Shown here in pieces: positions 29,921 through 62,212 of a DNA stretch of 64,000 nucleotides. The stretch comes from Mesorhizobium sp. 1M-11 (lineage in GTDB: Bacteria; Pseudomonadota; Alphaproteobacteria; Rhizobiales; Rhizobiaceae): the NCBI RefSeq assembly GCF_001303895.1, contig NZ_LJSD01000001.1:1-64000 (forward strand), given 5' to 3'. The first letter of the stretch is position 1; each line of letters starts with the position of its first letter. The translations under genes and the position numbers were made by a program. A model generated the notes under the pieces. It worked only from the letters and a program-made list of their open reading frames with translations, did not search any database and had not been told where the DNA came from.

Positions 29921-29970
29921 AGAGTATTTCCGCTCGGAAACGCTCCAGCACTTTGTTTTTACGCAATTCT
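29921..29970 (+). repeat. Truncated copy D of the dispersed repeat
   Basis: AGAGTATTTCCGCTCGGAAA followed by CTTTGTTTTTACGCAATTC corresponds to the left half of copies A-C with a shortened hairpin. It ends at the cobQ stop codon, overlapping it by two bases. Confidence 0.65.
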
Positions 29971-35123: not shown

Positions 35124-36503
35124 CTACGCTCGGCGCAGGTCTTCCTTGGCGAGGTCGAGCGCCTTGCCGATGCGCTCGCAACCCATGTCGATCGTGTCGC
35201 GGGTCCAGATCAGCGGCGGCGAAAGGATCATCGTATCACCGGTGGCCCGCAGCATCATACCATTGGCGATGGCGTGATCGCGTACGGTCACGGCAGCGCT
35301 CCCAGCAGGCGAGAAGCGCTCCTTCGTCGCCTTGTCCTTGATGATCTCGATGGCACCCATCAGTCCGATCGAGCGGACTTCGCCGACCAGGTCGTGCCCA
35401 GCAATGCGCTCCTGCAACGCCTTGGCGAAATAAGGCCCGGTCTCATTCTTGACCCGCTCGACCAGCCCTTCCTTGGCGATGATGTCCAGATTGGCGATCG
35501 CCACCGCACAGGCCACCGGATGACCGGAATAGGTGTAGCCGTGGTAGAATTCGCCGCCCTTTTCGACCAGTGTCGTGGCTATACGGTCGCCGACCAGCAG
35601 TGCCGACAGCGGCTGGTAGCCGGAGGTCAGCGCCTTGGCGGTGGTGATGGTGTCCGGCTGGATGCCGTAATAGTCGGCAGCAAACCACTCGCCGGTGCGA
35701 CCATAGCCGGTGATCACCTCATCCAGCATCAGAAGCACATCGTGCTTGCGGCAAATGCGCTGCACTTCCGGCCAGTAGCTGGCGGGCGGGATCTTGACTC
35801 CACCGGCACCCATGATTGGCTCGCCGATGAAGGCGGCCACGTTCTCCGCCCCAGCCTCAATGATCGCATCCTCGACCGCCTTGGCGGCACGCAGGCCGAA
35901 ATCATGGTCGCTCTCGCCGGGCAGCGCCAGCTCGTAGGCGTAAGGCATCATCACATGGACGATATTTGGCACCGGCCCACCGAGCTGGTTGTGCATGCCT
36001 TCCATGCCGCCGAGCGAGGTGCCTGCCACCGTCGAGCCGTGATAAGCGTTCTTGCGCGAGATGATGCGGTTCTTCTCCGGCTTGCCTTCCAGCGTCCAGA
36101 AGTGACGCACCAGCCGAAGCGCGGTGTCGTTGGCTTCCGAGCCTGACGAGCCATAAAAGACCTGGCTCACGCCCTTAGGCGCGATCTCGGCCAGCCGCTT
36201 GGACAACAGCACCGGCGTCGGTGTCGAACACTTGAAGAAGGAGTTGTAATAAGGCAGCTCCTTCATCTGGGCGTAGGCGGCATCGGCCAATTCATCGCGG
36301 CCATAGCCCACATTCACACACCAAAGGCCCGCCATGCCGTCGAGGATCTCCGCGCCTTCGGAATCGTAGATGAACGGTCCCTTGGCGTGGGTGATGATAC
36401 GCGAACCGGCGCCACGCAGTTCCTTGTGATCGGTGAAGGGGTGTAGATGATGCGCGGCATCGATCTGCTGAAGCTGCTTCAGCGAAAAATTCTGATAAGT
36501 CAT
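35124..36503 (-). CDS. Class III PLP aminotransferase (omega-aminotransferase, pyruvate-type)
   Basis: This 459-residue fold-type I enzyme transfers a terminal amino group, probably to pyruvate. The PLP lysine is K290 in TTAKALTSGYQPLSA, the ring-nitrogen aspartate D261 in LMLDEVITGYGRTG, and the phosphate-binding GSSGSEANDTALRL is near 118. The N-terminal HHLHPFTDHKEL and GLWCVNVGYGRDEL are typical of putrescine/beta-alanine/taurine-pyruvate aminotransferases. Sequence does not settle the amine donor. No regulator is adjacent. The divergent-looking 36504-36689 gap upstream holds nothing I recognise. Confidence 0.88.
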   Translation of the reverse strand: MTYQNFSLKQLQQIDAAHHLHPFTDHKELRGAGSRIITHAKGPFIYDSEGAEILDGMAGLWCVNVGYGRDELADAAYAQMKELPYYNSFFKCSTPTPVLLSKRLAEIAPKGVSQVFYGSSGSEANDTALRLVRHFWTLEGKPEKNRIISRKNAYHGSTVAGTSLGGMEGMHNQLGGPVPNIVHVMMPYAYELALPGESDHDFGLRAAKAVEDAIIEAGAENVAAFIGEPIMGAGGVKIPPASYWPEVQRICRKHDVLLMLDEVITGYGRTGEWFAADYYGIQPDTITTAKALTSGYQPLSALLVGDRIATTLVEKGGEFYHGYTYSGHPVACAVAIANLDIIAKEGLVERVKNETGPYFAKALQERIAGHDLVGEVRSIGLMGAIEIIKDKATKERFSPAGSAAVTVRDHAIANGMMLRATGDTMILSPPLIWTRDTIDMGCERIGKALDLAKEDLRRA

Positions 36504-38016: not shown

Positions 38017-39921
38017 TCAGGGGAAGTACCGCGCCAGCGCTCCCTTCCTGCCCTGCGCATAAGGCTTCAGCCATTTGTCGTCGATCCGCAGACCATCGTC
38101 GGCGGACGGTCCCTTGCCCAAAGTGCGCCGCCAGGCCCGGAATTTGTAGTGATCGAACACGTCAAGGAAATGCACGGCATAGGCGGCGGCGAAAGTCTTG
38201 TCGCCCTCGATGATCACGAGGTTTTCATCGTTCTCGTAGGACGCCTTGTAACCGAGGTTGTGGCTGCCGGTGATCACGGTGGCGTTGTCTTCCATCGGAT
38301 CGATGATGACGATCTTATCGTGCACAATGGCATGGCCGATGGTCAGCACTTCGGCTTGGAAATCCGTCGCGATCGAGGCGCCGGTCAGATTTGCGGCCCG
38401 TACGATCGAAACATTCGGCATCTCCCAGACCTTCTCCGGGAAGACAAAGGGCGCCTTCCCGTCCTTGTTGGACTTGCGCGTGACTGGGTCGCGCGTCGAG
38501 GGCACGTAGTTCGGCATCGCAACCGGATCGCTGATCGCGCCCTGCACGATGAGCCCCCTGTCCGCCCCCGCGGCAGCGACCGCTTCGGCAACGATCGAAT
38601 TGTCGCCACGCCGCGACGGGTTGAACACCAGGAACAGCACGGCCTTCTTGGCAGCCCTGATGCGGGAAAAAACGTCCTCCAGGTCGACCGGCCGCACCGA
38701 AAGCGTCTTCTTGTTACGCTCGGGGTCGTTCGGCGAGAACCACACGGTCATATCATCGAGTGGCGCGCTTTGACCGTTTAGCGGATTGGCAATGTGGTTG
38801 TTCTTGCGAAACGCCACGCCTTGGGTCTGCACGGCATGGCCCGGCGCGTCCTCGCGTTGCGGCGGCGGAAACACATCGCCCTTCATGCGCTCCCAGTAGT
38901 CGTTGAAGATCTTCGCCATTTCGGGATCGTCGCGGATGAAGGCATTGTTGGACTGACCACAGATACCGGTGGTCGTCCAGTTGGTCGACCCGGTCATCAC
39001 CGCCTGCGGCGCGCCGTGTTTGTCGCGATAGACCGCGAACTTGTTATGGCCGATATGGTTGTTGTTGAAGAGCCGATCGGTCACCGTCACCCCGGCATCG
39101 CGCAGCGCCTGGCGGTAAGGAGCGTTGCCGAAATCCCATTTCTTGGTCTGCTCGTCCTTGCCGGAGTTGGAAAGGATCACCTCCACAACACCCTTCGCGG
39201 CGATGATGGCGTCACGCAGCGCGTCATCGCCGAGTTCATAGAGCGCGAGCCGCACCGAACCGCCTTCCGCCTTGGCCCGCGTCAGCAGGCTGATCAGCAC
39301 GTCGGGCACATCGCCATGCAGATAGGCGCGGATCTTGCTGTTACGATCCTGCAGCTCTTCCCGGATCTTGTCGCGCTGGCCGACCTTGATGCCGGCCTCG
39401 GCGAGCGCGCGCGACATCCATTGTGTCGACAGCACGCCGTTGGTGAAGGCCACGCGCGCCTTGCCGAACATCGAACCCAGGAAGATCGTCGGGCTCACGG
39501 CGCCCTGCCCCAGATAGCCGAGCGGTCGTGGCGAGCCAGTATAGGTCCGCTTGCCGTCAATTTCGGGCGGCCGAACCGGAACCGGTTCCAGCCCCGCCTT
39601 CATGGCGCCGACTGGACGCACGCGATAGGCGATCATTTCGCCATCGGGCCGCATGGTCAGGCTGTCGCGGCGGCGGCGCACCGTGAGATCGCGCCAGAAG
39701 GTCTTCTGTACCGGCCACACGCCGGTATCCTGTGGGATCCACTCCTTGTTGCGCTGTCCCTTGAACGGCACCCAGGAAGCCAGGCAACGCTCTTCGCCGG
39801 TATTGGGGTAAAGCCGCACGATCTCGAAACCGAGACAGCCTGGAATCATGCCGTCGACATCCCAGGCAATGAAGGCGACTTCGTTGTTGGTCGCCGCCCG
39901 CACCCTTACCACATCGGCCAT
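38017..39921 (-). CDS. Phospholipase D-like phosphodiesterase
   Basis: The 634-residue protein contains two HKD half-sites: HNKFAVYRD near residue 292, with MTGSTNWTTTG after it, and HDKIVIID near residue 532, followed by VITGSHNLG. Two such motifs in one chain make a complete PLD active site with a phosphohistidine intermediate. The first 150 residues are a separate domain of unknown role. No signal peptide is visible. Substrates of this superfamily include phospholipids and nucleic acids; none is indicated. GAGGGAGGATGTC precedes the ATG at 39921. It is transcribed divergently from mttB (222 bp). Confidence 0.83.
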   Translation of the reverse strand: MADVVRVRAATNNEVAFIAWDVDGMIPGCLGFEIVRLYPNTGEERCLASWVPFKGQRNKEWIPQDTGVWPVQKTFWRDLTVRRRRDSLTMRPDGEMIAYRVRPVGAMKAGLEPVPVRPPEIDGKRTYTGSPRPLGYLGQGAVSPTIFLGSMFGKARVAFTNGVLSTQWMSRALAEAGIKVGQRDKIREELQDRNSKIRAYLHGDVPDVLISLLTRAKAEGGSVRLALYELGDDALRDAIIAAKGVVEVILSNSGKDEQTKKWDFGNAPYRQALRDAGVTVTDRLFNNNHIGHNKFAVYRDKHGAPQAVMTGSTNWTTTGICGQSNNAFIRDDPEMAKIFNDYWERMKGDVFPPPQREDAPGHAVQTQGVAFRKNNHIANPLNGQSAPLDDMTVWFSPNDPERNKKTLSVRPVDLEDVFSRIRAAKKAVLFLVFNPSRRGDNSIVAEAVAAAGADRGLIVQGAISDPVAMPNYVPSTRDPVTRKSNKDGKAPFVFPEKVWEMPNVSIVRAANLTGASIATDFQAEVLTIGHAIVHDKIVIIDPMEDNATVITGSHNLGYKASYENDENLVIIEGDKTFAAAYAVHFLDVFDHYKFRAWRRTLGKGPSADDGLRIDDKWLKPYAQGRKGALARYFP

Positions 39922-40143
39922 GACATCCTCCCTCGAAGCCTCTGGCGCGCGCAATCTACCTTGCTCGCATGGCGCGACTGTAACGGTGTTCACACTAACC
40001 CGCGCGGCTTTCTGCTGGGTTCGCCAATGCTGCCGACACGGCACGCGTCATGTCGCTTTGCTCGCTCTAATGGTCGCCGCCTCCGCAATGGCGGACCGGT
40101 CGGCGGTCCATTATGCGGCGACAAAAATTGCATGAGGATTATC

Positions 40144-41721
40144 ATGACCGCCGCGCTGCAACCCGCCGAACCGGCCCTGGCCACCGATCGCGCCCGTCGC
40201 GGCGGGCGCGCCGGAAAGCGTGCCGTAGGCTCCGTCGCCTTTGACCAGCCGGCCTTCCGACAGCTCAAGATCCCGTTCGCGCCGACCAAACTGCTCTCCG
40301 ATGACGAGCTGGAATCGATCCACTTGGCCTCGCTGCGTGTGCTCAAGGAAATCGGCGTCGACGTACTGCACGACGAAGCCCGCCGCATCATGAAGGCGCA
40401 CGGCGCCGATGTGCGCGAAGGCGAGGTTCGTGTCCGTTTCGACGCAGACATGATCCTCGACCTGATCTCCCATGCGCCCAGCGAATTCACCATTCATGCC
40501 CGCAATCCTGCGCACAATCTGCGCTTCGGCGGCAACAACACGATCTTCGCGCAGATGGCTTCAGCCCCCAATTGCTCCGATATCGATAGCGGCCGCCGGC
40601 CCGGCAACCAGCGCGATTATCGCAATTTCCTCAAGCTCGCGCAGATGCACAACATCCTTCAGATAACGGGGGGCTACCCGGTTGAGCCGATCGACGTCCA
40701 CCCGTCGGTCCGCCATCTCGAATGCATCCGCGACCTCGCCATCCTGACCGACAAGGCCTTCCACGCCTATTCTCTCGGCAAGGAACGCAATCTCGACGGC
40801 ATCGAGATCGCCCGTATCGCGCGCGGCATTTCGCGCGAGCAGATGATGGAGGAGCCGTCGCTCTACACCATCATCAACACCAACTCGCCCTTGAAGCTCG
40901 ATGTCCCGATGATGGAAGGCATCATTCAGATGTCGTCCATGGGCCAGATTGTCTTCGTAACACCCTTCACGCTATCGGGCGCGATGGCACCGGTGACGAT
41001 CGCCGGCGCCCTGGTGCTGCAAAATGCCGAGGCGCTTGCCGGCATTGCCTTTACGCAGATGGTTCGGAAGGGTGCGCCCGTCGGCTATGGCGGTTTCACC
41101 TCCAACGTCGACATGAAGTCCGGCGCACCGGCCTTCGGCACGCCGGAATATATGAAGGCGCAGTTGGTCGGCGGCCAGTTGGCCCGCCGCTACAACCTGC
41201 CCTACCGCACCTCCAACACCTGTGCCGCCAATACGGTGGATGCCCAGGCTGCCTATGAAAGCGTATTTTCGCTGTGGGGCGTCATTCAGGGCGGCGGCAA
41301 CTTCATGATGCATGGCGCCGGCTGGCTGGAAGGCGGCCTGCGCTGCTCCTACGAAAAGATGATCCTCGACATCGATCTTCTGCAGATGGTGGCGGAATTC
41401 CTCACGCCGCTCGACCTCTCGGAGGACGCGCTTGCCGTCGACGCCATCCGCGATGTCGGCCCTGGCGGCCATTTCTTCGGCACGCCGCATACCCAGTCGC
41501 GCTACAAGACCGCCTTCTATGCGCCGATCCTATCCGACTGGCGCAATTTCGAGACCTGGGCCGAAGCAGGCTCGCCGACAGCGATGGAGAAAGCCAACCG
41601 CGTCTGGAAAGAGCGTCTGGCGAGCTACGAAGAGCCCTACATGGACCCCGCCATCCGTGAAGAACTCAATGCCTTCGTCGACCGGCGCATCGCCGAGGGC
41701 GGCGCTCCCACGGATTTTTGA
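40144..41721 (+). CDS. MttB-family corrinoid methyltransferase, non-pyrrolysine (paralogue 1)
   Basis: This 525-residue TIM-barrel protein belongs to the trimethylamine methyltransferase superfamily, which transfers a methyl group from a quaternary or tertiary amine to a corrinoid protein. The frame has no internal amber codon, so like MtgB (glycine betaine methyltransferase) it lacks pyrrolysine. Conserved segments include SIHLASLRVLKEIGVDVLHDEARRI near 60 and TPFTLSGAMAPVTIAGALVLQNAEA near 280. A short Arg/Gly-rich stretch (RARRGGRAGKR) precedes the fold. I start at the ATG at 40144, with GAGGA five bases upstream. It heads a unit with a dimethylglycine dehydrogenase-like gene and a DddP-like gene. 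Confidence 0.85.
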   Translation: MTAALQPAEPALATDRARRGGRAGKRAVGSVAFDQPAFRQLKIPFAPTKLLSDDELESIHLASLRVLKEIGVDVLHDEARRIMKAHGADVREGEVRVRFDADMILDLISHAPSEFTIHARNPAHNLRFGGNNTIFAQMASAPNCSDIDSGRRPGNQRDYRNFLKLAQMHNILQITGGYPVEPIDVHPSVRHLECIRDLAILTDKAFHAYSLGKERNLDGIEIARIARGISREQMMEEPSLYTIINTNSPLKLDVPMMEGIIQMSSMGQIVFVTPFTLSGAMAPVTIAGALVLQNAEALAGIAFTQMVRKGAPVGYGGFTSNVDMKSGAPAFGTPEYMKAQLVGGQLARRYNLPYRTSNTCAANTVDAQAAYESVFSLWGVIQGGGNFMMHGAGWLEGGLRCSYEKMILDIDLLQMVAEFLTPLDLSEDALAVDAIRDVGPGGHFFGTPHTQSRYKTAFYAPILSDWRNFETWAEAGSPTAMEKANRVWKERLASYEEPYMDPAIREELNAFVDRRIAEGGAPTDF

Positions 41722-41802
41722 GCGGCGAGCAGCTGACTCTTAATCAGCGGGTCAGGCTGCCCCACAACCTGAGTCAAACCATCCAAACCGAGAAATAACT
41801 CT

Positions 41803-44388
41803 ATGAAATCCCACGTTAAAGCGGTTGTGATCGGCGGCGGCGTCGTCGGATGTTCGGTCCTCTACCATCTGGCAAAAGCCGGCTGGAGCGATGTCATGCT
41901 GATCGAGCGTTCGGAACTCACCTCCGGCTCGTCCTGGCATGCTGCCGGCGGCTTCCATACGCTGAACGGCGATCCGAATGTCGCCAAGCTGCAGGCCTAC
42001 ACCGTGCAGCTCTACAAGGAACTGGAGGAGCTTTCCGGCCAGTCCTGCTCGCTGCACCTGACCGGCGGCATCATGATGGCCGATACGCCGGAGCGCATGG
42101 ACTTCCTGCGGCTCGCCCACGCCAAGGGTCGCTATCTTGGCATGGACACCGAACTGATCACGCCTTCGGAAGCCAAGGCGATGTTCCCGCTGATGGACGA
42201 GACGAACTTCGTCGGCGCCATGTGGGATCCCGTCGAAGGCCATCTCGATCCGTCCGGCACCACGCATGCCTATGCCAAGGCAGCCAAGAAGCTGGGCGCC
42301 GAAATCGTACTGCGCAACCGCGTCATCGAATTGACCCAAGAGGTCGACGGCACCTGGAACGTTGTCACCGAACAGGGCACGGTCAAGGCCGAGCACGTCG
42401 TTAACTGTGGCGGCCTGTGGGCGCGCGAGGTCGGCCGCATGGTCGGCGTCGAGCTGCCCCTGCTCGCCATGGAGCATATGTATCTGCTCACCGAGCCGAT
42501 GAAGGAGGTCGAGGAATTCAACAAGGCGACCGGCCGCGAAATGGTCGGCGTGCTCGACTTCAAGGGCGAGATCTACACGCGCCAGGAGCGCAACGGCATC
42601 CTGCTCGGCACCTATGAGAAAGCCTGCAAGCCATGGTCGCCGGTGAACACGCCCTGGGATTTCGGCCACGAACTCCTCCAACCCGACCTCGACCGCATCG
42701 CGCCCTCGCTGGAGATCGGATTCAAACATTTCCCGGGCATCGCCAATGCCGGCATCAAGCAGGTCATCAACGGCCCCTTCACCTTTGCGCCCGACGGCAA
42801 CCCGCTGGTCGGTCCGGTACAGGGCCTGACGAATTTCTGGTGCGCCTGCGCTGTCATGGCCGGCTTCAGCCAGGGTGGTGGTGTCGGTCTCGCCCTGTCC
42901 AACTGGATGGTGAATGGCGATCCCGGCTTCGACGTCTGGGGCATGGATGTCGCCCGTTTCGGCGAGTGGGCGAGCCTGCGCTACACCAACGCCAAGGTGC
43001 GCGAAAACTATTCGCGCCGCTTCTCCATCCGCTTCCCGAACGAAGAGTTGCCCGCTGCCCGTCCGGCGCAGACCACGCCGCTCTACGACACGATGGTGGC
43101 CAACAATGCCGTCATGGGCGACAGCTGGGGCCTGGAGACCCCGCTCTGGTTCGCGCCAAAGGGTTCGGAACCGAAGGACGTCGTCTCCTTCCACCGCTCC
43201 AACGACTTCGAACATATCGGCAATGAAGTGCGTGCGGTACGTGAGCGCGTTGGCATCACCGAGATCGCCAATTTCGCGAAATATGAAGTCAGTGGAACGG
43301 GTTCGGAAGATTTCCTGAATCGTTTGATGACCAACCGGATGCCCAAGAAGGGCCGCATCGTGCTGACCCCGATGCTGAACGAATTCGGCAAGCTGATCGG
43401 CGACTTCACCATCGCCAAGACGGGCGACGACAAGTTCATGATCTGGGGCTCATCCGCGGCACAGAAATACCACATGCGCTGGTTCGAGAAGCACCTGCCT
43501 AAGGACGGCTCCGTTCGCATTCACCGCTTCGACCAGACCCTTGTCGGCCTCTCCATTGCCGGGCCGAAGAGCCAGCAACTGCTGCAGAAGCTCACCGACA
43601 TTGACGTTTCGTCCAAAGCTTTCCGCTTTATGGACTTCCGCGAGATGGCCATCGGCGGCGCACCGTGCCTCGTCAACCGCATCACCTATACCGGCGATCT
43701 GGGCTATGAAATCTGGATGCCGCCTGCCTATCAGCGGCTTGTCTATGCCGCCATCAAGGAAGCGGGCGCAGAGTTCGGCATCGTCGATTTCGGCATGCGC
43801 GCGCTGCTTGCCATGCGCCTGGAGAAGAACTTCCCGACATGGTTCCGTGAGCTGAGGCCGATCTACGGCCCGTTCGAGGGTTCGATGGATCGCTTCATCA
43901 AGATGGAGAAGAACGACTTCATCGGCCGTGAAGCAGCCGCAAGCGAACAGGCCGAACTGGCCGACGGCAAGGCCTCGAAACTGCGCCGCGTCTCTTTCGT
44001 GGTGGACGCAGCCGATGCAGATGTGATGGGCGATGAGCCGATCTGGGCCAAGGTTTCGACCGACTACGGAACGGTCGAGAAGCCGCATGGTTACGGTGCA
44101 CCGCGCTTCGACGAGACAGGCAAGGAAGTGCGCGGCTCGGAGGCTGCACAAGGCGCTTCTGGCGTGCGTGGGATCGTCGATGGAGAATGGCGTGTCGTCG
44201 GCTGGATCACGTCGGGTGGTTACGCACACTATGTCCAGAAGTCGATGGCGCAGGGCTACGTACCGGCGGCATTGGCTGAAAATGAAAGCGCCGGCATGTT
44301 CGAGATCGAGATCCTCGGGCACCGCCGCCCTGCCCGCATCAACATTGAACCGCCCTTCGACCCGAGCGGCGAAAAGATGCGGGGTTGA
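41803..44388 (+). CDS. Dimethylglycine/sarcosine dehydrogenase-like flavoprotein with folate domain
   Basis: The 861-residue protein fuses an N-terminal FAD amine oxidase (GGGVVG at 11-16) to a C-terminal aminomethyltransferase (GcvT-like) folate domain from about residue 480. H46 in SSWHAAGG is the position that binds FAD covalently in dimethylglycine and sarcosine dehydrogenases. Such enzymes oxidatively remove an N-methyl group and pass the formaldehyde unit to tetrahydrofolate. It follows mttB by 81 bp and precedes the M24 gene by three bases. Together they suggest stepwise demethylation of a methylated amine. The exact substrate is open. Confidence 0.88.
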   Translation: MKSHVKAVVIGGGVVGCSVLYHLAKAGWSDVMLIERSELTSGSSWHAAGGFHTLNGDPNVAKLQAYTVQLYKELEELSGQSCSLHLTGGIMMADTPERMDFLRLAHAKGRYLGMDTELITPSEAKAMFPLMDETNFVGAMWDPVEGHLDPSGTTHAYAKAAKKLGAEIVLRNRVIELTQEVDGTWNVVTEQGTVKAEHVVNCGGLWAREVGRMVGVELPLLAMEHMYLLTEPMKEVEEFNKATGREMVGVLDFKGEIYTRQERNGILLGTYEKACKPWSPVNTPWDFGHELLQPDLDRIAPSLEIGFKHFPGIANAGIKQVINGPFTFAPDGNPLVGPVQGLTNFWCACAVMAGFSQGGGVGLALSNWMVNGDPGFDVWGMDVARFGEWASLRYTNAKVRENYSRRFSIRFPNEELPAARPAQTTPLYDTMVANNAVMGDSWGLETPLWFAPKGSEPKDVVSFHRSNDFEHIGNEVRAVRERVGITEIANFAKYEVSGTGSEDFLNRLMTNRMPKKGRIVLTPMLNEFGKLIGDFTIAKTGDDKFMIWGSSAAQKYHMRWFEKHLPKDGSVRIHRFDQTLVGLSIAGPKSQQLLQKLTDIDVSSKAFRFMDFREMAIGGAPCLVNRITYTGDLGYEIWMPPAYQRLVYAAIKEAGAEFGIVDFGMRALLAMRLEKNFPTWFRELRPIYGPFEGSMDRFIKMEKNDFIGREAAASEQAELADGKASKLRRVSFVVDAADADVMGDEPIWAKVSTDYGTVEKPHGYGAPRFDETGKEVRGSEAAQGASGVRGIVDGEWRVVGWITSGGYAHYVQKSMAQGYVPAALAENESAGMFEIEILGHRRPARINIEPPFDPSGEKMRG

Positions 44389-44391
44389 ATC

Positions 44392-45771
44392 ATGTCGACG
44401 GCTGGCCGGACTTCAGGGAGTTTCGGCCGCCATCGCAAGATCATGCCTTTCGAGCCGGGCAGTACTTCGCAGCCCGGCTCGACTGAAGAGCTACGCGCCG
44501 CATCGCGTGAAAAGGCAGCTTCGCTCAACCAGCATGTGTTGGGCTACGGCGAGATCGCCGAACGTGAATGGGCAGTAGCCGGCATAGCCGCACCCGATCT
44601 TCGCAAGATGCGCAAGTACCGACTCGAGCGCATTCGCGCCGAAATGAGGCGCCGCGGCTATGCAGGCGCGCTGCTTTATGATCCGGTCAACATCCGCTAC
44701 GCGACCGACAGCACAAACATGCAACTCTGGGTCGCGCACAATCCGACCCGCCACTGTTTCGTGGCGACGGAGGGGCCGGTCGTTCTCTTCGATTATTTCT
44801 CCTGCGAGCACCTGTCCGACCACTCCGGTGTGGTCGACGAGGTGCGACCGGCCGTGTCCTGGATGTATCTCTATGGCGGCGAGATCACGGAAATGAAGGT
44901 TCGCCGTTGGGCAGCCGGGATCGCCGATCTGATGCGCGAACATGGCGGCGGCAACAATCGCATTGCCGTCGATCATCTCGACCACGAAGGGGTCGAAGAG
45001 CTTGCACGCCTCGGCATCACCATAGGCAATGGCGAAGCCGTGATGGAGAATGCTCGCCTCATCAAATCGCCCGATGAAATCCTCGCCATGCGCCGCGCCA
45101 TCGTCGCCTGCGAGGCGGCCATGGGCGAAATGCAGGCAGCCCTGAAGCCAGGCATTTCCGAGAACGAATTGTGGGCGGAACTGCATCGCGGCAACATCGC
45201 GCGCGGCGGCGAGTGGATCGAGACACGACTGCTCTCCTCGGGCCCGCGCACCAATCCCTGGTTCCAGGAATGCTCGTCGCGCATCATCGAGGCCGGGGAT
45301 CTCGTTGCGTTCGACACCGATCTCATCGGCCCCTACGGGTTCTGTGCCGACCTTTCGCGCAGCTGGCTGTGCGGCGACGGTCGTCCCGGCAACGAACAGC
45401 GTGATCTCTATCGCATTGCCGCCGACCAGATCATCTACAACATCGAGTTGATGCGGCCGGGGATCTCGTTCAAAGAACTTGTCGAACGCTCCGCCGTGCC
45501 GCCGCCGGATTGTTTCCCGACCCGCTATGGCGTGCTTTATCACGGCGTCGGCCTTGCCGACGAATACCCAACCCTGCCGCACATCTCCGATTGGACAGAA
45601 GATACGCCAGATGGCCTGATTGAACCCGGCATGGTGCTGTGCGTGGAAAGCTACATCGGCCGTCTGGGTGGGCATGAAGGGGTCAAGCTCGAGGAGCAGA
45701 TTCTGATCACCGAGACAGGTCACCAGAAACTCTCGGCCTATCCTCTCGACGAACGCCTGTTGGCTGAGTGA
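44392..45771 (+). CDS. M24-family protein closely resembling the DMSP lyase DddP
   Basis: The 459-residue protein has the M24 creatinase/prolidase pita-bread fold (N-terminal domain to about 215, catalytic domain 220-459). Its metal ligands are D308, D310, D320, H384, E419 and E434, and D390 sits in HGVGLADEYP. From memory these match Ruegeria DddP D295, D297, D307, H371, E406, E421 and the catalytic D377 at a constant offset of 13. Shared blocks include NIRYATDSTNMQLW and GGEWIETRLLSSGPRTNPWF. DddP cleaves DMSP to dimethylsulfide and acrylate, but the mttB and DMGDH-like partners here point to a methylated-amine context, so DMSP lysis is a hypothesis. Confidence 0.8.
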   Translation: MSTAGRTSGSFGRHRKIMPFEPGSTSQPGSTEELRAASREKAASLNQHVLGYGEIAEREWAVAGIAAPDLRKMRKYRLERIRAEMRRRGYAGALLYDPVNIRYATDSTNMQLWVAHNPTRHCFVATEGPVVLFDYFSCEHLSDHSGVVDEVRPAVSWMYLYGGEITEMKVRRWAAGIADLMREHGGGNNRIAVDHLDHEGVEELARLGITIGNGEAVMENARLIKSPDEILAMRRAIVACEAAMGEMQAALKPGISENELWAELHRGNIARGGEWIETRLLSSGPRTNPWFQECSSRIIEAGDLVAFDTDLIGPYGFCADLSRSWLCGDGRPGNEQRDLYRIAADQIIYNIELMRPGISFKELVERSAVPPPDCFPTRYGVLYHGVGLADEYPTLPHISDWTEDTPDGLIEPGMVLCVESYIGRLGGHEGVKLEEQILITETGHQKLSAYPLDERLLAE

Positions 45772-46956: not shown

Positions 46957-47769
46957 TCAGCCGGCAATCAGCTCGGCTTCCGCCACAAGAGCTGCGCGCA
47001 ATTTTGCCAGCAGCGCCGGTGGCGTGGTTCGCGCCGTGATGAAAGGCAGTCCCTTGCGCCGCGCTGTCCAGCCAACGACCGCGACATCCTTCGCCCGTGG
47101 TTCGAAACGCTGCGCCAGGGCCCAGCTTTGGCAATCGATCGCTGCCACATCGGCCCGTCCCTCGGCGACCTCCACAACGGAATTGCGGTGGCCGCCGCTT
47201 TCCAGCCGTTCGGCGAAGACATCGAGACTTTCGCCAATCGCCTGGAGGTCACGGGTGATGGCAATGATGCCCGACATGGAATCGAGACTGTTGAAGGCGA
47301 AACGCTTGCCCCTGATCAGGTCGAGCGGAATGAGCGCCTGTCCCTTGTCGGGTGCGGCAACGTCTTTGCCCGGTTTCCGCATCACGATGGCGCTGGAGTA
47401 GAAACCACCCTGCCCGCCTTCGATACCGTCATAGCTCGGCTGGCCGACCACCTGCACATGGTGCTGAAGACCGAGTTCCATCGGCCCCCAGCAGGTCTGC
47501 GCGAACAGCAGCGCCGGATGCAGCCAGATGGCGTGGAAATCAAGTTCGTCCGGCGACAGTCTTGCAGGATCAGATACGACGACCTTGCCTGATGCGTCAC
47601 GGATCCCGCCCGGAACGGCAGGCAGGTCTGCATTGCGCCGCACCAACGCTTCGGGTGCATCGACACCGGCGTACTGCAAGGCATGGCGAATCTTTGCCCA
47701 TTGAGCATCGACCTGCGCGCGGGCTTCCGGCCAGTCATACATAGAAAGGGCGGCGATGAATTTGCTCAT
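46957..47769 (-). CDS. PhnD-like periplasmic-binding-fold protein without signal peptide
   Basis: The 270-residue product resembles phosphonate/phosphite binding proteins of the PhnD family: an N-terminal ALSMYDWPEARAQVDAQWA, a central LPAVPGG and DFHAIWLHPALLFAQTCWG segment, and LIRGKRFAFNSLDSMSGI near 150. There is no signal peptide and no ABC permease or ATPase beside it, so it may be a cytoplasmic orphan that binds a phosphonate-like ligand or a regulator domain. The family match is moderate; the ligand is unknown. The start at 47769 (MSKFIAALS) gives the normal family beginning. Confidence 0.65.
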   Translation of the reverse strand: MSKFIAALSMYDWPEARAQVDAQWAKIRHALQYAGVDAPEALVRRNADLPAVPGGIRDASGKVVVSDPARLSPDELDFHAIWLHPALLFAQTCWGPMELGLQHHVQVVGQPSYDGIEGGQGGFYSSAIVMRKPGKDVAAPDKGQALIPLDLIRGKRFAFNSLDSMSGIIAITRDLQAIGESLDVFAERLESGGHRNSVVEVAEGRADVAAIDCQSWALAQRFEPRAKDVAVVGWTARRKGLPFITARTTPPALLAKLRAALVAEAELIAG

Positions 47770-47832
47770 GCCAGGATATGATCGTCGCAGGGTTGAGGTT
47801 TCAAGATGGCGTAAGAAACGGAGTACCGACAA

Positions 47833-48843
47833 TCACTCCTTCGGGGGTTCGGCAGGAACCGGCGCGGTTCCGAGGCCGCTGACGTTGCGAGCCCGCACGC
47901 GCGGCGCAAACGCCCTGCCCTTTTCCGGCACACGCCGCAGCGCGGGATGCACGACCGGCTCCTTGGCCTTGAAGGCATAGGCTTTCAACAGCGCGAAATA
48001 ATTCGGGTATGTATAGCCGTTGTTGGCCTTCAACCACTTTTCGCGGTCATCCCGGAAGAGCTTCGGCAACTTGTACCAGGCCACCGTCGGCTTGCTGTGG
48101 TGCACGAAATGCAGGTTGTTGTTGAGGAACAGGAAGGACAGCGGCGAGCGTTCCACGATCACGGTTCGGCCCTCGGGACGCTCCGACCACTGGTGTTCGG
48201 CATAGGTGCGGATCGCAATCAGCGACTGGCCGAACCACATCGGGACAAGGATGTAGAGCCACAGCGGCATGCCGAAGCCGAATTGGATCACCAGCAGCAC
48301 TGCGGCAAGTCCGATGGCGTGCAACAGCCAAGCCTGCCGGATCGACTTGTCTCCAGCCAGCATCTGCTTGGCGTCGTCGATGTAAAAGCCGATCATCGAC
48401 ATCCACGGACCGAGGAAAAAGCGGCCGACCATGGTGTTGTTGATCCTGAGCAGGAACTTCATCGCCTCCGGAAGCTCGTCATGGTGCCACAGCGCCTTGT
48501 AGTAGCTCTCCGGATCGTCGAGCGGATCCGTGAGGCGCTCATCGGCGTGGTGGCGCAGATGCAGCGTCTTGAAGCGGCGGAATGGCCAAATAAGCCCGAT
48601 CGGCAGGAAGACGACAGCCTCGTTGACCAGCGCGTTGCGGGTCGGATGGCCATGCAGCACTTCGTGGATCAGCGACGACTGCAACGCGACAGTCAGAGTG
48701 AGCACGACAAGGGCAACTAGCGGATAGGAGGGCCAGATCAACAGGCCGGCGATGAGCCAGGTCCCGTAACAGCCTATGGCGAGAAAAACGGTCGGCCATT
48801 CCACCGCCGGTTTGCTGCTCACCTTCTTGCGCTTGTTTGCCAT
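47833..48843 (-). CDS. Membrane fatty acid desaturase-like protein
   Basis: This integral membrane di-iron enzyme (336 residues) has the three histidine boxes of acyl-lipid desaturases: HEVLHGH at 60-66, HLRHH at 95-99 and HFVHH near 253, in correct topology with four hydrophobic helices. It may desaturate or hydroxylate a lipid or a related substrate. The family includes beta-carotene hydroxylase and alkane hydroxylases. The start is uncertain: GTG at 48855 or ATG at 48843. It is divergent from the XRE regulator gene, with the 230 bp 48844-49073 gap as a shared control region. Confidence 0.82.
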   Translation of the reverse strand: MANKRKKVSSKPAVEWPTVFLAIGCYGTWLIAGLLIWPSYPLVALVVLTLTVALQSSLIHEVLHGHPTRNALVNEAVVFLPIGLIWPFRRFKTLHLRHHADERLTDPLDDPESYYKALWHHDELPEAMKFLLRINNTMVGRFFLGPWMSMIGFYIDDAKQMLAGDKSIRQAWLLHAIGLAAVLLVIQFGFGMPLWLYILVPMWFGQSLIAIRTYAEHQWSERPEGRTVIVERSPLSFLFLNNNLHFVHHSKPTVAWYKLPKLFRDDREKWLKANNGYTYPNYFALLKAYAFKAKEPVVHPALRRVPEKGRAFAPRVRARNVSGLGTAPVPAEPPKE

Positions 48844-48889
48844 GCGATCGACCACTGCCTTTCAGTCGCCGGAACCGGTTTGTGATTCC

Positions 48890-49969: not shown

Positions 49970-50566
49970 TTGGATCGCCATATCGTCGTGCCTCCGCAGT
50001 CCGGCCGCGCCTTCCGTATAAAAAAGGGCGAACGCATCCGCATCATCGACCCCAAGGGCCAACAAGTCGCCGATCTGTGGGCTTTCGTGACCGGAGAAAC
50101 GCTGGATTGGCTGAGCACGTCGAACACCCGCGACATCATCGAGCGATTGTTCCCACAGATCGGCGAACATTTTTACGGCACCACAGGTGAGCCGCTGCTG
50201 ACACTGGTGGCGAACGATTCCCCCGGTCCGCACGACATGCTCTTTCCGGCCTGCAACGCGGCGCTATACCGCCGCGCCGGTTTCGACGAGCATCCGAGTT
50301 GCCAGGACAATCTGCATAAGGCACTCGCCGCCGAGGGCATTGCGCTTCCCTTCACGCCGGACCCGGTCGACTTCTTCCAGAACTCGCTGCCGACCGCTGA
50401 CGGAACATTGCTGGTTGACGCCTCCATCAACCCGCCGGGCGGTTCGGTGACGCTGCGAGCCGAACGCGATCTCCTGGTCGTCGTCACAGCCTGTTCGGTC
50501 GATCATCATCCGACCAATGGCGACGTCTGCACCGAAATCGAAGTCGAGCTGACGCCGGCCGCGTAG
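49970..50566 (+). CDS. DUF1989 (urea amidolyase-associated protein family) protein
   Basis: The 198-residue protein has the DUF1989 sequence features: VVPPQSGRAFRIKKGERIRIIDPKGQQVADLWAF at the N terminus, DSPGPHDMLFPACNAALY near 85, and PGGSVTLRAERDLLVVVTACSVDHHPTNG at the C terminus, a cupin-like beta fold. These proteins accompany urea carboxylase genes or occur alone; some act in guanidine-related metabolism. No urea carboxylase is adjacent. The start is TTG with GCAGGGAGC 7-14 bases upstream. It may share a transcript with the XRE gene. Confidence 0.82.
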   Translation: MDRHIVVPPQSGRAFRIKKGERIRIIDPKGQQVADLWAFVTGETLDWLSTSNTRDIIERLFPQIGEHFYGTTGEPLLTLVANDSPGPHDMLFPACNAALYRRAGFDEHPSCQDNLHKALAAEGIALPFTPDPVDFFQNSLPTADGTLLVDASINPPGGSVTLRAERDLLVVVTACSVDHHPTNGDVCTEIEVELTPAA

Positions 50567-50678: not shown

Positions 50679-50710
50679 CTTATCCAAACTCGAGTTTGAA
50701 AGCCCGCGCC

Positions 50711-51733
50711 ATGACCACCATCAATCCGATCGATGCCCTGATCGCCGAAAAGGGCGTGCTTCTGGCCGATGGCGCCACCGGCACCAATCTGTTCGCAATG
50801 GGCCTGCCGGCTGGCGAAGCGCCGGAAATCCTCAACGAGACCGCGCCCGAGACCATTACCAAGCTGCATCAGGGCTTTGTCGATGCTGGCGCCGACATCA
50901 TCCTGACCAACTCCTTCGGCGGCACCCGTCACCGTCTGAAGCTGCACCATGCGCAGGACCGCGTCTTCGAATTGAACAAGACGGCTGCGGAAATCGCGCG
51001 TTCCGTTGCCGACAAGGCTGGCCGCAAAGTCATCGTCGCCGGCTCCGTCGGCCCAACCGGCGAGCTGCTCATTCCGCTCGGCGCGCTAAGCTACGAGGAT
51101 GCCGTCGAGGCCTTTGCCGAACAGATCGAGGGCTTGAAGGCCGGTGGCGCCGAAGTCGCCTGGATCGAGACCATGTCGGCACCTGACGAGATCCGCGCTG
51201 CCGCCGAGGCTGCAATCCGCGTCGGCCTGCCCTATACCTATACGGGTTCCTTCGACACCGCCGGCCGCACCATGATGGGTCTGCTGCCGAAGGATATCCA
51301 CGCCGTCGCTGATGGCCTGGCCGAAGCCCCGCTCGGCGTCGGCGCCAACTGCGGCGTCGGCGCGTCCGATATCCTGGCTTCCCTGCTCGACATGACCGAG
51401 GCAAAGCCGGAGGCCACTGTCATCGTCAAGGGCAATTGCGGCATCCCGGAATTCCGCGGCTCGGAAATCCATTACTCCGGCACGCCGGAACTGATGTCCG
51501 ACTATGTGCGTCTGGCCGTCGATGCCGGCGCAAAGATCGTTGGTGGCTGCTGTGGCACCTCCTTCGCCCACCTGGCCGCCATGCGCAAGGCGCTGGATGT
51601 GCACAAGAAGGACGTGCGCCCAACGGTTGAAACCATCGTCGAGCGCATCGGGCCGCTGCGCAACAAGGCTGCCAGCGCCAATGCCAATGAGACCGGCGAA
51701 GGTCGTCGCGAGCGTCGCCGCTCGCGCGCCTGA
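50711..51733 (+). CDS. bmt: Zinc-dependent homocysteine S-methyltransferase family protein (betaine-homocysteine methyltransferase-like)
   Basis: This 340-residue TIM barrel binds Zn through C214 in GANCG and C280-C281 in GGCCGTS, the family site that activates homocysteine thiolate. N-terminal GATGTNLFAMGLP and WIETMSAPDE near 150 are also typical. It makes methionine by moving a methyl group from betaine, S-methylmethionine or a corrinoid-linked donor onto homocysteine. Because the window contains corrinoid methyl-transfer genes, it may equally be used as an acceptor enzyme. The ATG at 50711 is preferred over TTG 50696; neither has a strong ribosome site. The C terminus (RRERRRSRA) is very basic. 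Confidence 0.82.
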   Translation: MTTINPIDALIAEKGVLLADGATGTNLFAMGLPAGEAPEILNETAPETITKLHQGFVDAGADIILTNSFGGTRHRLKLHHAQDRVFELNKTAAEIARSVADKAGRKVIVAGSVGPTGELLIPLGALSYEDAVEAFAEQIEGLKAGGAEVAWIETMSAPDEIRAAAEAAIRVGLPYTYTGSFDTAGRTMMGLLPKDIHAVADGLAEAPLGVGANCGVGASDILASLLDMTEAKPEATVIVKGNCGIPEFRGSEIHYSGTPELMSDYVRLAVDAGAKIVGGCCGTSFAHLAAMRKALDVHKKDVRPTVETIVERIGPLRNKAASANANETGEGRRERRRSRA

Positions 51734-58697: not shown

Positions 58698-60275
58698 TCA
58701 CGTGAAGGCGTCGGGCATCGACTCCTTCTTCTTGGTGATGAAGGCTTGCAGCGCCTCATCGATGCCCTGGTCGAGATCCGGTGCCTCGTAGCTCTCCAGC
58801 CAGCGCCGGGCCAGCTCGTTGGCGCGCTGCGGTGCCGTCTTCTCACCTTCTGCCAACCACTGCTCATAGGAGTTGTTGTCGGCGATGGCGGAACGGTAGA
58901 AGGCCGTCTGGAAGTTGGCCTGGGTGTGGTCGCAGCCGAGATAGTGGCTGCCCGGGCCAACCTGGCGGATGGCGTCCATCGCCTGGCCGTTCTCCGACAG
59001 ATCGACGCCCTCGGCAAACTTCTGCTGCATGCCGAGCTGGTCGACGTCCATCATGAACTTCTCATAGCAGGAGGCCAGTCCGCCCTCGAGCCAGCCAGCC
59101 GAATGCAACACGAAATTGGTGCCGGCAAGAATGGTCGAATTCAGCGTGTTGGCACTTTCATAGGCTGCCTGCGCGTCCGGGATCTTGGAGGCGCACAGCG
59201 AACCGCCGGTACGGAACGGCAGGCCGAGCCGACGCGCCAGTTGCGCAGCACCGTAGGATACCAGCGACGGCTCCGGTGTGCCGAAGGTCGGCGCACCCGA
59301 CTGCATCGAGATTGACGAAGCGAAGGTGCCGAACAGCACTGGCGCACCGGGCCGGATGAGCTGGGTGAAGGAAGCGCCGGCCAGAACCTCTGCCAGGACC
59401 TGCGTCAGCGTGCCGGCTACCGTCACCGGGCTCATCGCACCGGCTAGGATGAACGGGGTGACGATGCAGGCCTGGTTGTGGCGTGCATAGACCTTCAGTG
59501 CACCCAGCATCGTCTCGTCGAAAACCATTGGCGAGTTGGCGTTGATCAGCGAAGTCAGCACCGTGTTGTTTTCGACAAAGTCGTCGCCGAACACCAGCTT
59601 GGCCATCGCGACGGTGTCTTCCGCGCGTTCCGGCGCCGTGACAGAGCCCATGAACGGCTTATCCGAATATTTGATGTGCGAATAGATCATGTCGAGATGG
59701 CGCTTGTTGACCGGCACATCGACCGGTTCGCACACCGTTCCACCCGAATGGTGGATCGACGGCGCCATATAGGCGAGCTTCACGAAATTGCGGAAATCCT
59801 CGATCGTCGCATAGCGGCGGTTGCCGTCGAGGTCGCGCACGAAGGGCGGTCCGTAGACGGGTGCGAAGACCGTGGCATTGCCGCCGATCTGTACCGAACG
59901 CTCCGAGTTGCGCGCATGCTGGGTATACTGCTTCGGCGCGGTCTTGAGCAGGGAGCGGCAGAGCCCTCGCGGAAAGCGAACGCGCTCGCCCTTCACATCG
60001 GCTCCGGCCTGCTTCCACAATTGAAGCGCTTCGGCATCGTCGCGGAATTCGATCCCGGTCTCTTCGAGAACCGTGTCGGCGTTCTTCTCGATCAGTGCCA
60101 GGCCTTCCTCGTCCAGCACTTCATAGACCTTGATCTGGCGCCGGATATAGGTGAGCTGCTGGCCGGGTCCACCGCCGGTGCGCGCGGCGCGTCTGGCGGC
60201 GGCGCCACCCCGGTCTCCACGCCCTCGCCTGCCGCCCGCCGCCGCTTCGTGATCGACTGCCGCGTTCTCACTCAT
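58698..60275 (-). CDS. MttB-family corrinoid methyltransferase, non-pyrrolysine (paralogue 2)
   Basis: A second 525-residue MttB-superfamily protein, about as long as the paralogue at 40144, has no internal amber codon. The fold begins near residue 40 (LTYIRRQIKVYEVLDEEGL) after a low-complexity Arg/Gly-rich region (GGRRGRGDRGGAAARRAARTGGG). Conserved segments include YMAPSIHHSGGTVCEPVDVPVNKRHLD near 175 and TPFILAGAMSPVTVAGTLTQVLAEV near 285. It is divergent from the corrinoid protein gene with a 259 bp gap, the obvious partner. AAGGAAGAGCG precedes the ATG. The methyl donor is likely a quaternary amine such as glycine betaine, but this is not determined. Confidence 0.83.
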   Translation of the reverse strand: MSENAAVDHEAAAGGRRGRGDRGGAAARRAARTGGGPGQQLTYIRRQIKVYEVLDEEGLALIEKNADTVLEETGIEFRDDAEALQLWKQAGADVKGERVRFPRGLCRSLLKTAPKQYTQHARNSERSVQIGGNATVFAPVYGPPFVRDLDGNRRYATIEDFRNFVKLAYMAPSIHHSGGTVCEPVDVPVNKRHLDMIYSHIKYSDKPFMGSVTAPERAEDTVAMAKLVFGDDFVENNTVLTSLINANSPMVFDETMLGALKVYARHNQACIVTPFILAGAMSPVTVAGTLTQVLAEVLAGASFTQLIRPGAPVLFGTFASSISMQSGAPTFGTPEPSLVSYGAAQLARRLGLPFRTGGSLCASKIPDAQAAYESANTLNSTILAGTNFVLHSAGWLEGGLASCYEKFMMDVDQLGMQQKFAEGVDLSENGQAMDAIRQVGPGSHYLGCDHTQANFQTAFYRSAIADNNSYEQWLAEGEKTAPQRANELARRWLESYEAPDLDQGIDEALQAFITKKKESMPDAFT

Positions 60276-60377
60276 GATCGCTCTTCCTTGAAATCCGTTC
60301 GACCGCCTCACGGCGGCTGCTTCCCCGGATCGTAGTCATGCACCCTATCCGAAACGGCCAGCGAGCGCCAACGCCTG

Positions 60378-60501
60378 TCGCAAAATCGACAAGAAGAACA
60401 ACAGATTCCCGGTCGCTTTCCTTTTGCGGAAAGTCGCAAATCAGCTATGGATGCGCGTCGTCGCACGGTAGGTATTGACGCGACGATTGGTGCCTTGCGA
60501 C
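60378..60501. promoter_or_regulatory. Three GTCGCAA-type sites in the mttB/corrinoid-protein divergent region
   Basis: GTCGCAAA occurs at 60378-60385 and 60433-60440, and the inverted TTGCGAC at 60495-60501, within the 259 bp gap 60276-60534. Spacing is 55 and about 62 bases. They could be binding sites for a shared regulator of both divergent genes. Chance recurrence cannot be excluded. Confidence 0.3.
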
Positions 60502-60534
60502 AAGGTCGCGCGGCCGCAGGGAGATAGATCAAAC

Positions 60535-61233
60535 ATGTCCGACGACGAGATCATCCTTTCCGAACTCTCCGACGAGGAACTCGTGCAGCAGATGCACGAC
60601 GATCTTTATGACGGCCTCAAGGAAGAAATCGAGGAAGGCACGAACATCCTCCTGGAGCGTGGCTGGGCACCTTACACGGTCCTCACCGAGGCGCTGGTCG
60701 AAGGCATGCGCATTGTCGGCGAGGATTTCCGCGACGGCATCCTGTTCGTGCCGGAAGTGCTGCTTTCCGCAAATGCGATGAAGGCAGGCATGTTCATCCT
60801 GCGCCCGCTGCTCGCAGCCACTGGCGCTCCCAAGCAGGGCAAGATGGTGATCGGCACCGTCAAGGGCGACATTCACGACATCGGCAAGAACCTTGTCGGC
60901 ATGATGATGGAAGGCGCGGGCTTCGACGTCATCGACCTCGGCATCAACAACCCGGTCGAGAAATATCTCGACGCGATCGAGCAGCATCAGCCGGACATCA
61001 TCGGCATGTCGGCGCTGCTCACCACCACCATGCCTTACATGAAGGTCGTCATCGACACGATGAAGGAAAAGGGCATTCGCGACGACTATGTCGTTCTGGT
61101 CGGCGGCGCCCCGCTCAATGAGGAATTCGGCAAAGCCGTCGGCGCCGATGCTTATTGCCGCGACGCTGCGGTGGCGGTGGAAACCGCCAAGGACTTCATG
61201 AAACGCAAGCACAACGTGCGCGCTTCAGCCTGA
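60535..61233 (+). CDS. Corrinoid (B12-binding) methyltransferase protein, MtbC/MttC-like
   Basis: This 232-residue protein carries a methylcobamide cofactor between methyltransferases. The N-terminal helical cap spans about 1-95. The C-terminal Rossmann B12-binding domain has the DxHxxG motif D112-I-H114-D-I-G117 in VKGDIHDIGKNLVGMM, the S of MSALLTTTM near 160 and the GG of VLVGGAPLN near 195; H114 is the lower axial ligand. It starts at an ATG with GCAGGGAGATAG upstream and is divergent from the second mttB gene. MttB would load it, and a homocysteine or folate methyltransferase would unload it. Confidence 0.9.
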   Translation: MSDDEIILSELSDEELVQQMHDDLYDGLKEEIEEGTNILLERGWAPYTVLTEALVEGMRIVGEDFRDGILFVPEVLLSANAMKAGMFILRPLLAATGAPKQGKMVIGTVKGDIHDIGKNLVGMMMEGAGFDVIDLGINNPVEKYLDAIEQHQPDIIGMSALLTTTMPYMKVVIDTMKEKGIRDDYVVLVGGAPLNEEFGKAVGADAYCRDAAVAVETAKDFMKRKHNVRASA

Positions 61234-61428: not shown

Positions 61429-61531
61429 GGACGGTGTCTCCCTTATGGCGATGTAACAATCATCAACGCCAAAGAGATAACACAGTTCCAACGTTGTGCA
61501 GAACGCGAATGGCGATGTTGGAGTGATCCGC

Positions 61532-62212
61532 ATGGCAACACAACAGAACCTCGATCCGGCAGCCATCGCCGACGCTGTGGTGATGGTTGATGGGGAGATT
61601 CCCTCGGCCGCTCCGCTCATAGAGCGCGTTCGGGTCATTGCTTGCGGCGCGATCGCGCGTGAGGTGCTGGCGGTCTGCAAAGCCAACCATCTCGACCATG
61701 TCGACCTGATCTGTCTGCCGGCAATCTGGCATGTCTATCCCGACAAGATCGCGCCCGCGATGCGTGAGGCGATCGCCAAGGCACGAACGGAAGGCTACAG
61801 TCGCATCTTCATCGGTTATGCCGAATGCGGCACGCGCGGCGAGCTCGACAAGATCTGCGAGGAAGAGGGCATCGAGCGTATCGGCGGACCACACTGCTAT
61901 GCCTTCTTCAGCGGCAATGAGGCCTTTGCAAAGGTAGCTGAGGACGAATTCACGGCCTTCTACCTGACCGACCTGATCACGCGCCAGTTCGAGGCTTTTG
62001 TCATCGAACCGCTCAAGCTCGACAAACATCCCGAACTCAAGGAAATGGTCTTCGGCAATTACACCAAGATCGTCTATCTGGCGCAGACCGATGACAAGGT
62101 CCTGCAGGAGAAAGCGAAGTGGGCAGCCGACTATCTGGGCCTCGACTATGAATATCGCTTCACCGGCTATGGCGATCTCGCGCCCGCGATCCTTTCGGCG
62201 GCCGAACGCTGA
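61532..62212 (+). CDS. DUF1638 protein of the corrinoid methyltransferase locus
   Basis: The 226-residue product has the DUF1638 features: VIACGAIAREVLAVCKANHLDHVDLICLPAIWHVYPDKIAPAMREAI near 35-80, followed by the GYAECGTRGELDKICEE segment with conserved cysteine, and HCYAFFSGNEAF near 120. From my knowledge of such loci, DUF1638 genes are common neighbours of mttB and corrinoid-protein genes, and the family may bind a corrinoid or metal through these cysteines and histidines, but its role is not known. It begins at the ATG at 61532, divergent from the entericidin gene. Confidence 0.78.
   Translation: MATQQNLDPAAIADAVVMVDGEIPSAAPLIERVRVIACGAIAREVLAVCKANHLDHVDLICLPAIWHVYPDKIAPAMREAIAKARTEGYSRIFIGYAECGTRGELDKICEEEGIERIGGPHCYAFFSGNEAFAKVAEDEFTAFYLTDLITRQFEAFVIEPLKLDKHPELKEMVFGNYTKIVYLAQTDDKVLQEKAKWAADYLGLDYEYRFTGYGDLAPAILSAAER

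Follow-up and report, generated by a model that had tools for sequence, protein, structure and literature searches.

The 64,000-nucleotide stretch of Mesorhizobium sp. 1M-11 DNA analysed here (contig NZ_LJSD01000001.1, positions 1 to 64,000; referred to as the window) carries three consecutive genes on the forward strand, which encode an MttB-superfamily methyltransferase, a dimethylglycine dehydrogenase (DMGDH)-like protein and an M24 metalloenzyme related to DddP, the lyase of dimethylsulfoniopropionate (DMSP). Here, we found that this gene cluster is conserved and that the M24 gene is an optional member of it. With somewhat less than even confidence we read the locus as a conserved module for the demethylation of betaines (quaternary ammonium compounds), to which a DddP-type M24 lyase is added as an accessory; this enzyme may cleave a C-N or C-S bond in a related onium carboxylate. 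The features on which this reading is based are the following:

40144..41721, + strand: MttB-superfamily methyltransferase (non-pyrrolysine, 525 amino acids; PF06253; nearest solved structures 4yyc and 2qne/9yce)
41803..44388, + strand: DMGDH-like demethylase binding flavin adenine dinucleotide (FAD) and folate (861 amino acids; assigned from its domains and its best PDB match, human DMGDH 5l46)
44392..45771, + strand: DddP-family M24 metalloenzyme (459 amino acids; P0001; assigned from domains, ligands, structural model and tree)
45313..45351, + strand: M24 codons D308 to D320, including ligand D310 (RlDddP D295, D297, D307)
45526..45561, + strand: M24 codons Y379 to D390, including ligand H384 (RlDddP Y366, H371, D377)
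45646..45693, + strand: M24 codons of the metal ligands E419 to E434 (RlDddP E406, E421)

A first-pass annotation of this DNA had placed the M24 gene three bases from a DMGDH-like gene that follows mttB, and the coordinates bear this out, with 81 bases separating MttB from DMGDH (stop to start) and 3 bases separating DMGDH from M24. The MttB protein encoded at 40144 scored 656 bits with PF06253 and its gene contains no in-frame stop; with the pyrrolysine-type trimethylamine methyltransferase model TIGR02369 it stayed below the cut-off (301.5 vs 525 bits). A longer open reading frame (38794-41721) was discarded as a mechanical call that merely extends MttB upstream. The DMGDH-like protein shows the domain order DAO, FAO_M, GCV_T, GCV_T_C (562 bits with 5l46), and its FAD and GcvT domains are accompanied by a WHAAG motif, the histidine of which we take to be the FAD link. 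In the M24 protein, PF00557 (101.7 bits) and Creatinase_N were detected. Sixteen aligned orthologs keep K16 without exception and I17 almost without exception, so the protein probably starts before residue 16.

To quantify the conservation of the cluster, we inspected the neighbourhoods of the best 80 of at least 550 confirmed genome loci, some of which are truncated by contig ends. Homologs of both MttB and DMGDH were found within 6.5 kb at 37/37 loci with an M24 identity of at least 80%, and at 1/2 (70-80%), 4/10 (60-70%), 8/18 (55-60%) and 2/13 (below) of the remaining loci, which amounts to 15 of the 43 more distant orthologs. For MttB alone the corresponding numbers were 37/37, 1/2, 7/10, 9/18 and 3/13. 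The close orthologs are mostly from Mesorhizobium and Aminobacter, and all three genes also lie near each other in Roseibium/Labrenzia, Ahrensia, Kiloniella, Afifellaceae, Rhodobiaceae and two gammaproteobacterial metagenome-assembled genomes. Gene order varies (MttB-DMGDH-M24, MttB-M24-DMGDH, DMGDH-MttB-M24) while linkage is kept. Because every close ortholog retains the cluster and distant relatives retain it in other orders, the clustering of the three genes is not chance. Seven same-genus genomes were listed in a draw of 297 genomes from across the order; all of them carried the M24 gene, with identities of 86-94%, and in two the aligned part contained a TGA. The non-matching genomes listed started at the level of the same family. 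Without correction for relatedness and genome size, 32 of these 297 genomes carried both the M24 gene and a P0003-like MttB (at least 60% identity), 24 MttB only, 18 M24 only and 223 neither. The genome of origin encodes 10 M24 and seven MttB proteins, and the pair in the window is the only one within 10 kb.

The best solved relatives of the M24 protein are RlDddP and RdDddP (E-value 1e-112, far beyond chance), with identities of 44% over 408 columns and 42% over 414 columns, respectively. Its residues D308, D310, D320, H384, E419, E434, Y379 and D390 correspond to D295, D297, D307, H371, E406, E421, Y366 and D377 of RlDddP. The first-pass annotation had described the DddP ligands and D390 as kept at a constant offset of 13; all these residues match, but the constancy is limited to the catalytic domain, and in the N-terminal domain the offset is 18. 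The predicted structure (predicted local distance difference test score 84) superimposed on 4s01 with a root-mean-square deviation of 1.7 Å and template modelling (TM) scores of 0.87/0.91; query-normalised TM scores of 0.57-0.67 were obtained for prolidase, creatinase, EutD and aminopeptidase entries among the 50 matches listed. In DddP, the two peptidase histidines are replaced by Asp and Phe and Val-Pro activity was not measurable, according to a review (PMC5395565). The M24 protein lacks both histidines as well and carries D390 and F291 in their places, where F291 would map to RlDddP F278 in our own alignment. In this genome, M24 proteins of the ordinary type carry no DTD motif and have another residue in place of the base. 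A function as generic Xaa-Pro peptidase was rejected because both catalytic histidines are replaced. Thus, the active-site residues, the comparison within the genome and the predicted fold agree with the earlier assignment of the protein to DddP rather than to ordinary Xaa-Pro peptidases, and the check for clustering with the generic enzymes did not overturn it.

The first-pass annotation had also read a DddP function from the retained ligands and aspartate, and this inference did not hold. In an alignment of 100 sequences, which includes the window protein and both references, the D377 position was Asp in 87, Y366 was Tyr in 97, the six ligands were kept in 98, F278 was Phe in 78 and W277 was invariant. 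The signature residues are family-wide and therefore not diagnostic of a DMSP lyase. With the NCBIfam DddP model NF043017 the M24 protein reached 473.8 bits, below the cut-off of 600, which Oceanisphaera (626.5) and Paracoccus (849.8) sequences passed; two relatives encoded beside Rieske genes scored 440.5 and 367.4. In the tree, RlDddP and RdDddP fall into an 18-sequence branch (support 1.0) that excludes the M24 protein, which joins this branch at a 41-sequence node (support 0.96); support is weak at the root and at deeper nodes, and the outgroup did not form a monophyletic group. Thirty-two columns separate the group of the M24 protein from five sequences of the DddP branch. At H140, Q336, R378, G408 and S420, which belong to the clearest of these, the residue of the M24 protein is shared by nearly all of the examined relatives, whether MttB-linked, Rieske-linked or with D377 changed to Gly, so that DddP looks like a derived branch at those columns; elsewhere the groups are mixed. 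The Gly variant at D377 occurs in 9 of the 100 aligned sequences. A second DddP-family gene of the same genome (C4:48451-49611; L109 6437-7804), 43% identical to the M24 protein, has Gly at this position. At two further loci (L123 6496 and L125 6635) the eight sites read DDDWHTGE, and here the E406 ligand, Y366 and D377 are all altered.

The association of the M24 gene with the other two is optional. Within one genus, two genomes carry MttB-M24-DMGDH, and a third (98% complete) lacks the M24 gene (best match to the M24 protein 26%) and retains the same neighbourhood of Opp transporter, MttB, DMGDH and second MttB. Since MttB and DMGDH occur without M24 in many genomes, a shared pathway is not required, and the earlier proposal that the three gene products act jointly on one compound was not sustained. 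Taken together, the first-pass observation stands and its interpretation is partly supported: the association is real and recurrent, and a DddP function is not specifically indicated.

For our preferred reading, a betaine demethylation module with an accessory lyase, the following sequence of events may be envisaged. MttB would transfer one methyl group from a betaine-type quaternary amine to a shared B12 protein, from which it would pass to tetrahydrofolate or homocysteine, and the DMGDH-like enzyme would oxidatively remove the next methyl group and deliver it to folate. The M24 enzyme, with its two-metal site and an Asp base in place of a peptidase histidine, would act on a related onium carboxylate taken up by the same systems, cutting its C-N (or C-S) bond, and would thereby widen the diet of the module without being an obligatory step. 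Since the pairing of M24 with betaine genes recurs across many bacteria, the M24 protein probably cleaves a related methylated compound. The known chemistry of DddP and the family-wide site suggest the lyase activity, and it is only the neighbouring genes that point to an onium substrate.

Several observations weigh against this reading. Among 20 MttB loci picked because no M24 match was nearby, 13 have a DMGDH homolog. The 37 close orthologs represent nearly a single genus and hence are not independent. MttB was found within 6.5 kb in at least 32 of the 98 tree members; the true number may be higher, as 56 of the 98 stretches retrieved do not reach 6.5 kb on at least one side. Parsimony required 16 linkage changes with an unlinked root (mean 27, minimum 20 in 500 shuffles), which indicates repeated gain and loss, that is a recurrent association and not one ancient operon. 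An ancestral MttB linkage was dropped in view of the unlinked Fitch root, the weakly supported deeper nodes and a non-monophyletic outgroup. Moreover, the upstream genes for a 3-hydroxyisobutyrate dehydrogenase (33441) and an acyl-CoA dehydrogenase (32145) would fit ordinary valine-type catabolism.

The linkage kept in varying gene orders, the co-occurrence with MttB and an active site that retains metals and base but neither peptidase histidine speak for the module reading, and so do other neighbourhoods of the family. On Rhizobium plasmids, an M24-family gene follows genes for a Rieske oxygenase and its reductase, beside a 4-hydroxyproline epimerase and a betaine/proline ATP-binding cassette transporter, with putA about 6 kb away. 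The Rieske protein resembles GbcA, scores below the GbcA cut-off and is nearest to 4qup and 3vca, which we take to be stachydrine demethylases. In Caballeronia the M24 gene comes after a reductase gene, and a Rieske gene lies nearby on the opposite strand. Thus, in some relatives an Stc2-like Rieske oxygenase takes the place of MttB, presumably as first demethylase. A Parasedimentitalea plasmid carries DMGDH-M24-MttB with sarcosine oxidase, and a Terrarubrum plasmid carries sarcosine oxidase, DMGDH, bmt, MttB, an enolase-superfamily gene and M24. At one genome locus RACo, BHMT, M24, B12 protein, MttB and DMGDH genes are adjacent on both strands, which places M24 within a B12 methyl-transfer set. 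Among the 16 DddP-branch members with a neighbourhood, none was MttB-linked (within 6.5 kb), one member had a Rieske gene nearby and two members had an enolase-superfamily gene. Another locus (L131 2837-14000) contains four DddP-family M24 genes near MttB, enolase-superfamily and PutA-like genes. On a plasmid of Pseudomonas sp. MPC6 (L150/L272), Rieske, BADH-like and BCCT genes accompany an M24-family gene. A set of genes for a two-domain CoA transferase, BCCT, Fe-ADH and MMSDH, presumably a dddD-dddTBC arrangement, lies at a distance of 5 to 10 kb.

A wider interpretation, which we regard as doubtful, is that the M24 family around DddP comprises general onium-carboxylate lyases that partner betaine demethylases (MttB or Rieske) and act, for instance, on beta-alanine betaine or other beta-ammonium acids, with marine DddP as a specialised side branch. 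If true, it would give a function class to a widespread enzyme family and hint at the origin of the DMSP lyase DddP, and soil or rhizobial DddP-like genes should not be counted as DMSP lyases despite all recognised active-site residues.

The main rival, which we judge unlikely, is that the M24 protein is a feeder hydrolase, which splits the C-N bond of a conjugate or imide-type dipeptide and thus frees a betaine or N-methyl amino acid for MttB and the DMGDH-like enzyme. The ancestry of the M24 fold, Opp/Dpp-type transporters beside several MttB-M24-DMGDH clusters and the optional presence of M24 are all compatible with it. However, both peptidase histidines are replaced, and the Opp transporter is present also where the M24 gene is absent. 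S. meliloti has an Opp-like proline betaine transporter (Prb). The nearest plasmid relative of the Opp binding protein adjoins hydantoinase-type genes, so that the transporter is not diagnostic, which weakened the case for taking it as evidence that peptides or proline betaine are imported. Furthermore, RlDddP, which has the same site, showed no Val-Pro activity (PMC5395565).

Two further explanations appear improbable to a similar degree. The M24 protein might be a genuine DMSP lyase, forming dimethyl sulfide and acrylate, that is merely located among betaine genes. Its 44% identity, the shared fold, the complete ligands, the D377 and Y366 equivalents and the His-to-Phe and His-to-Asp changes would fit, as would the family member near the presumed dddD-dddTBC-like set on the Pseudomonas plasmid. 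Proven fungal DddP can be as little as 32% identical to RdDddP, as stated in PMC4108388. Against these points stand the missed curated cut-off, the position outside the RlDddP/RdDddP branch and columns such as H140, Q336, R378, G408 and S420, at which the M24 protein sides with other family groups and DddP differs. Alternatively, M24 might act in the same linear pathway on a partly demethylated product of one betaine (e.g. a proline or hydroxyproline betaine derivative). The Stc2-like Rieske, 4-hydroxyproline epimerase and PutA genes near some family members, together with enolase-superfamily genes resembling cis-3-hydroxyproline dehydratase, argue for this, but PutA, epimerase and enolase-superfamily queries found no match in window positions 34000-64000, and genomes exist that have MttB-DMGDH and no M24. 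That the M24 gene is a passenger, functionally unrelated to MttB and DMGDH, is very improbable: linkage is patchy family-wide (at least 32/98), but it recurs in many lineages with differing gene orders, and the only one of the 10 M24 genes of this genome within 10 kb of any of its seven MttB genes is that of the window.

The window contains additional genes, among them components of a glycine betaine system that depends on cobalamin and was described recently (PMC12478193):

49074..49931, + strand: XRE-type regulator beside the cluster (HTH_3; 32/37 close-ortholog loci)
49970..50566, + strand: urea-amidolyase-associated protein, which we take to be DUF1989-type (present in some of the genus loci)
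50696..51733, + strand: BHMT-type homocysteine methyltransferase, MtgE-like (NF005718, 559.6 bits, cut-off 338; role from PMC12478193; 32/37 close-ortholog loci)
58698..60311, - strand: second MttB-family protein, which groups with S. meliloti 4yyc
60475..61233, + strand: corrinoid (B12-binding) protein, MtgC-like (PF02310 and PF02607)
61496..62212, + strand: DUF1638 protein, predicted to function in corrinoid reactivation (PF07796; role from PMC12478193)

We infer that the MttB protein encoded at 40144 uses this B12 machinery. A cobyric acid synthase gene (CobQ, 29969-31438, above its cut-off) lies about 9 kb upstream of the cluster. Positions 46957-48855 encode a PhnD-like binding protein (37/37 close-ortholog loci) and a fatty-acid-desaturase-family protein (32/37), and desaturase homologs of 46-49% identity are found in Roseibium/Labrenzia loci. 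Some genus members have a PMT_2-type gene between DMGDH and M24 (L074 6256-7818). A class III-type aminotransferase (35124-36503) has homologs of 79-90% identity in the upstream flank of 7/80 loci; aminotransferase, alcohol dehydrogenase and major facilitator superfamily neighbours were set aside as too variable. Scanning for promoters and terminators gave one promoter-like site (shuffle mean 1.6) and two terminator-like sites (5.5), which is not above shuffles, and a viral-contig scan gave no match.

Among the titles and abstract openings listed by our literature searches, none described the combination of MttB, DMGDH-like and DddP-like M24 proteins. The Stc2 clusters, which we take to demethylate proline betaine (stachydrine), are similar in that the Rhizobium Rieske and reductase genes adjoin the same M24 family; unlike them, the window has MttB and DMGDH, and Rieske queries found no match in positions 34000-64000. 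With dimethylglycine dehydrogenase (5l46, 4p9s) the second protein shares the full domain order. With the MtgBCDE glycine betaine/methionine system of Ruegeria pomeroyi (PMC12478193) the window shares MttB-family proteins, a B12 protein, an MtgE-like BHMT and DUF1638. In contrast, the available part of that account mentions no M24 protein, and the MttB encoded at 40144 is a second paralog, the 4yyc-type one being encoded at 58698. To demethylate glycine betaine, Ruegeria pomeroyi is reported to require both MtgC and MtgD, and co-location with cobalamin genes is described for S. meliloti (PMC12478193). Neither MtgD nor RACo was identified in the window, although no search was aimed at them. From DddP (RlDddP 4rzy/4s01, RdDddP 4b28) the M24 protein differs by its identity of 42-44%, its score under the curated cut-off and its place outside the 18-sequence branch, which is without MttB linkage (0/16), but it shares with DddP the fold including the N-terminal domain, the six ligands, the equivalents of Y366 and D377 and the loss of both histidines.

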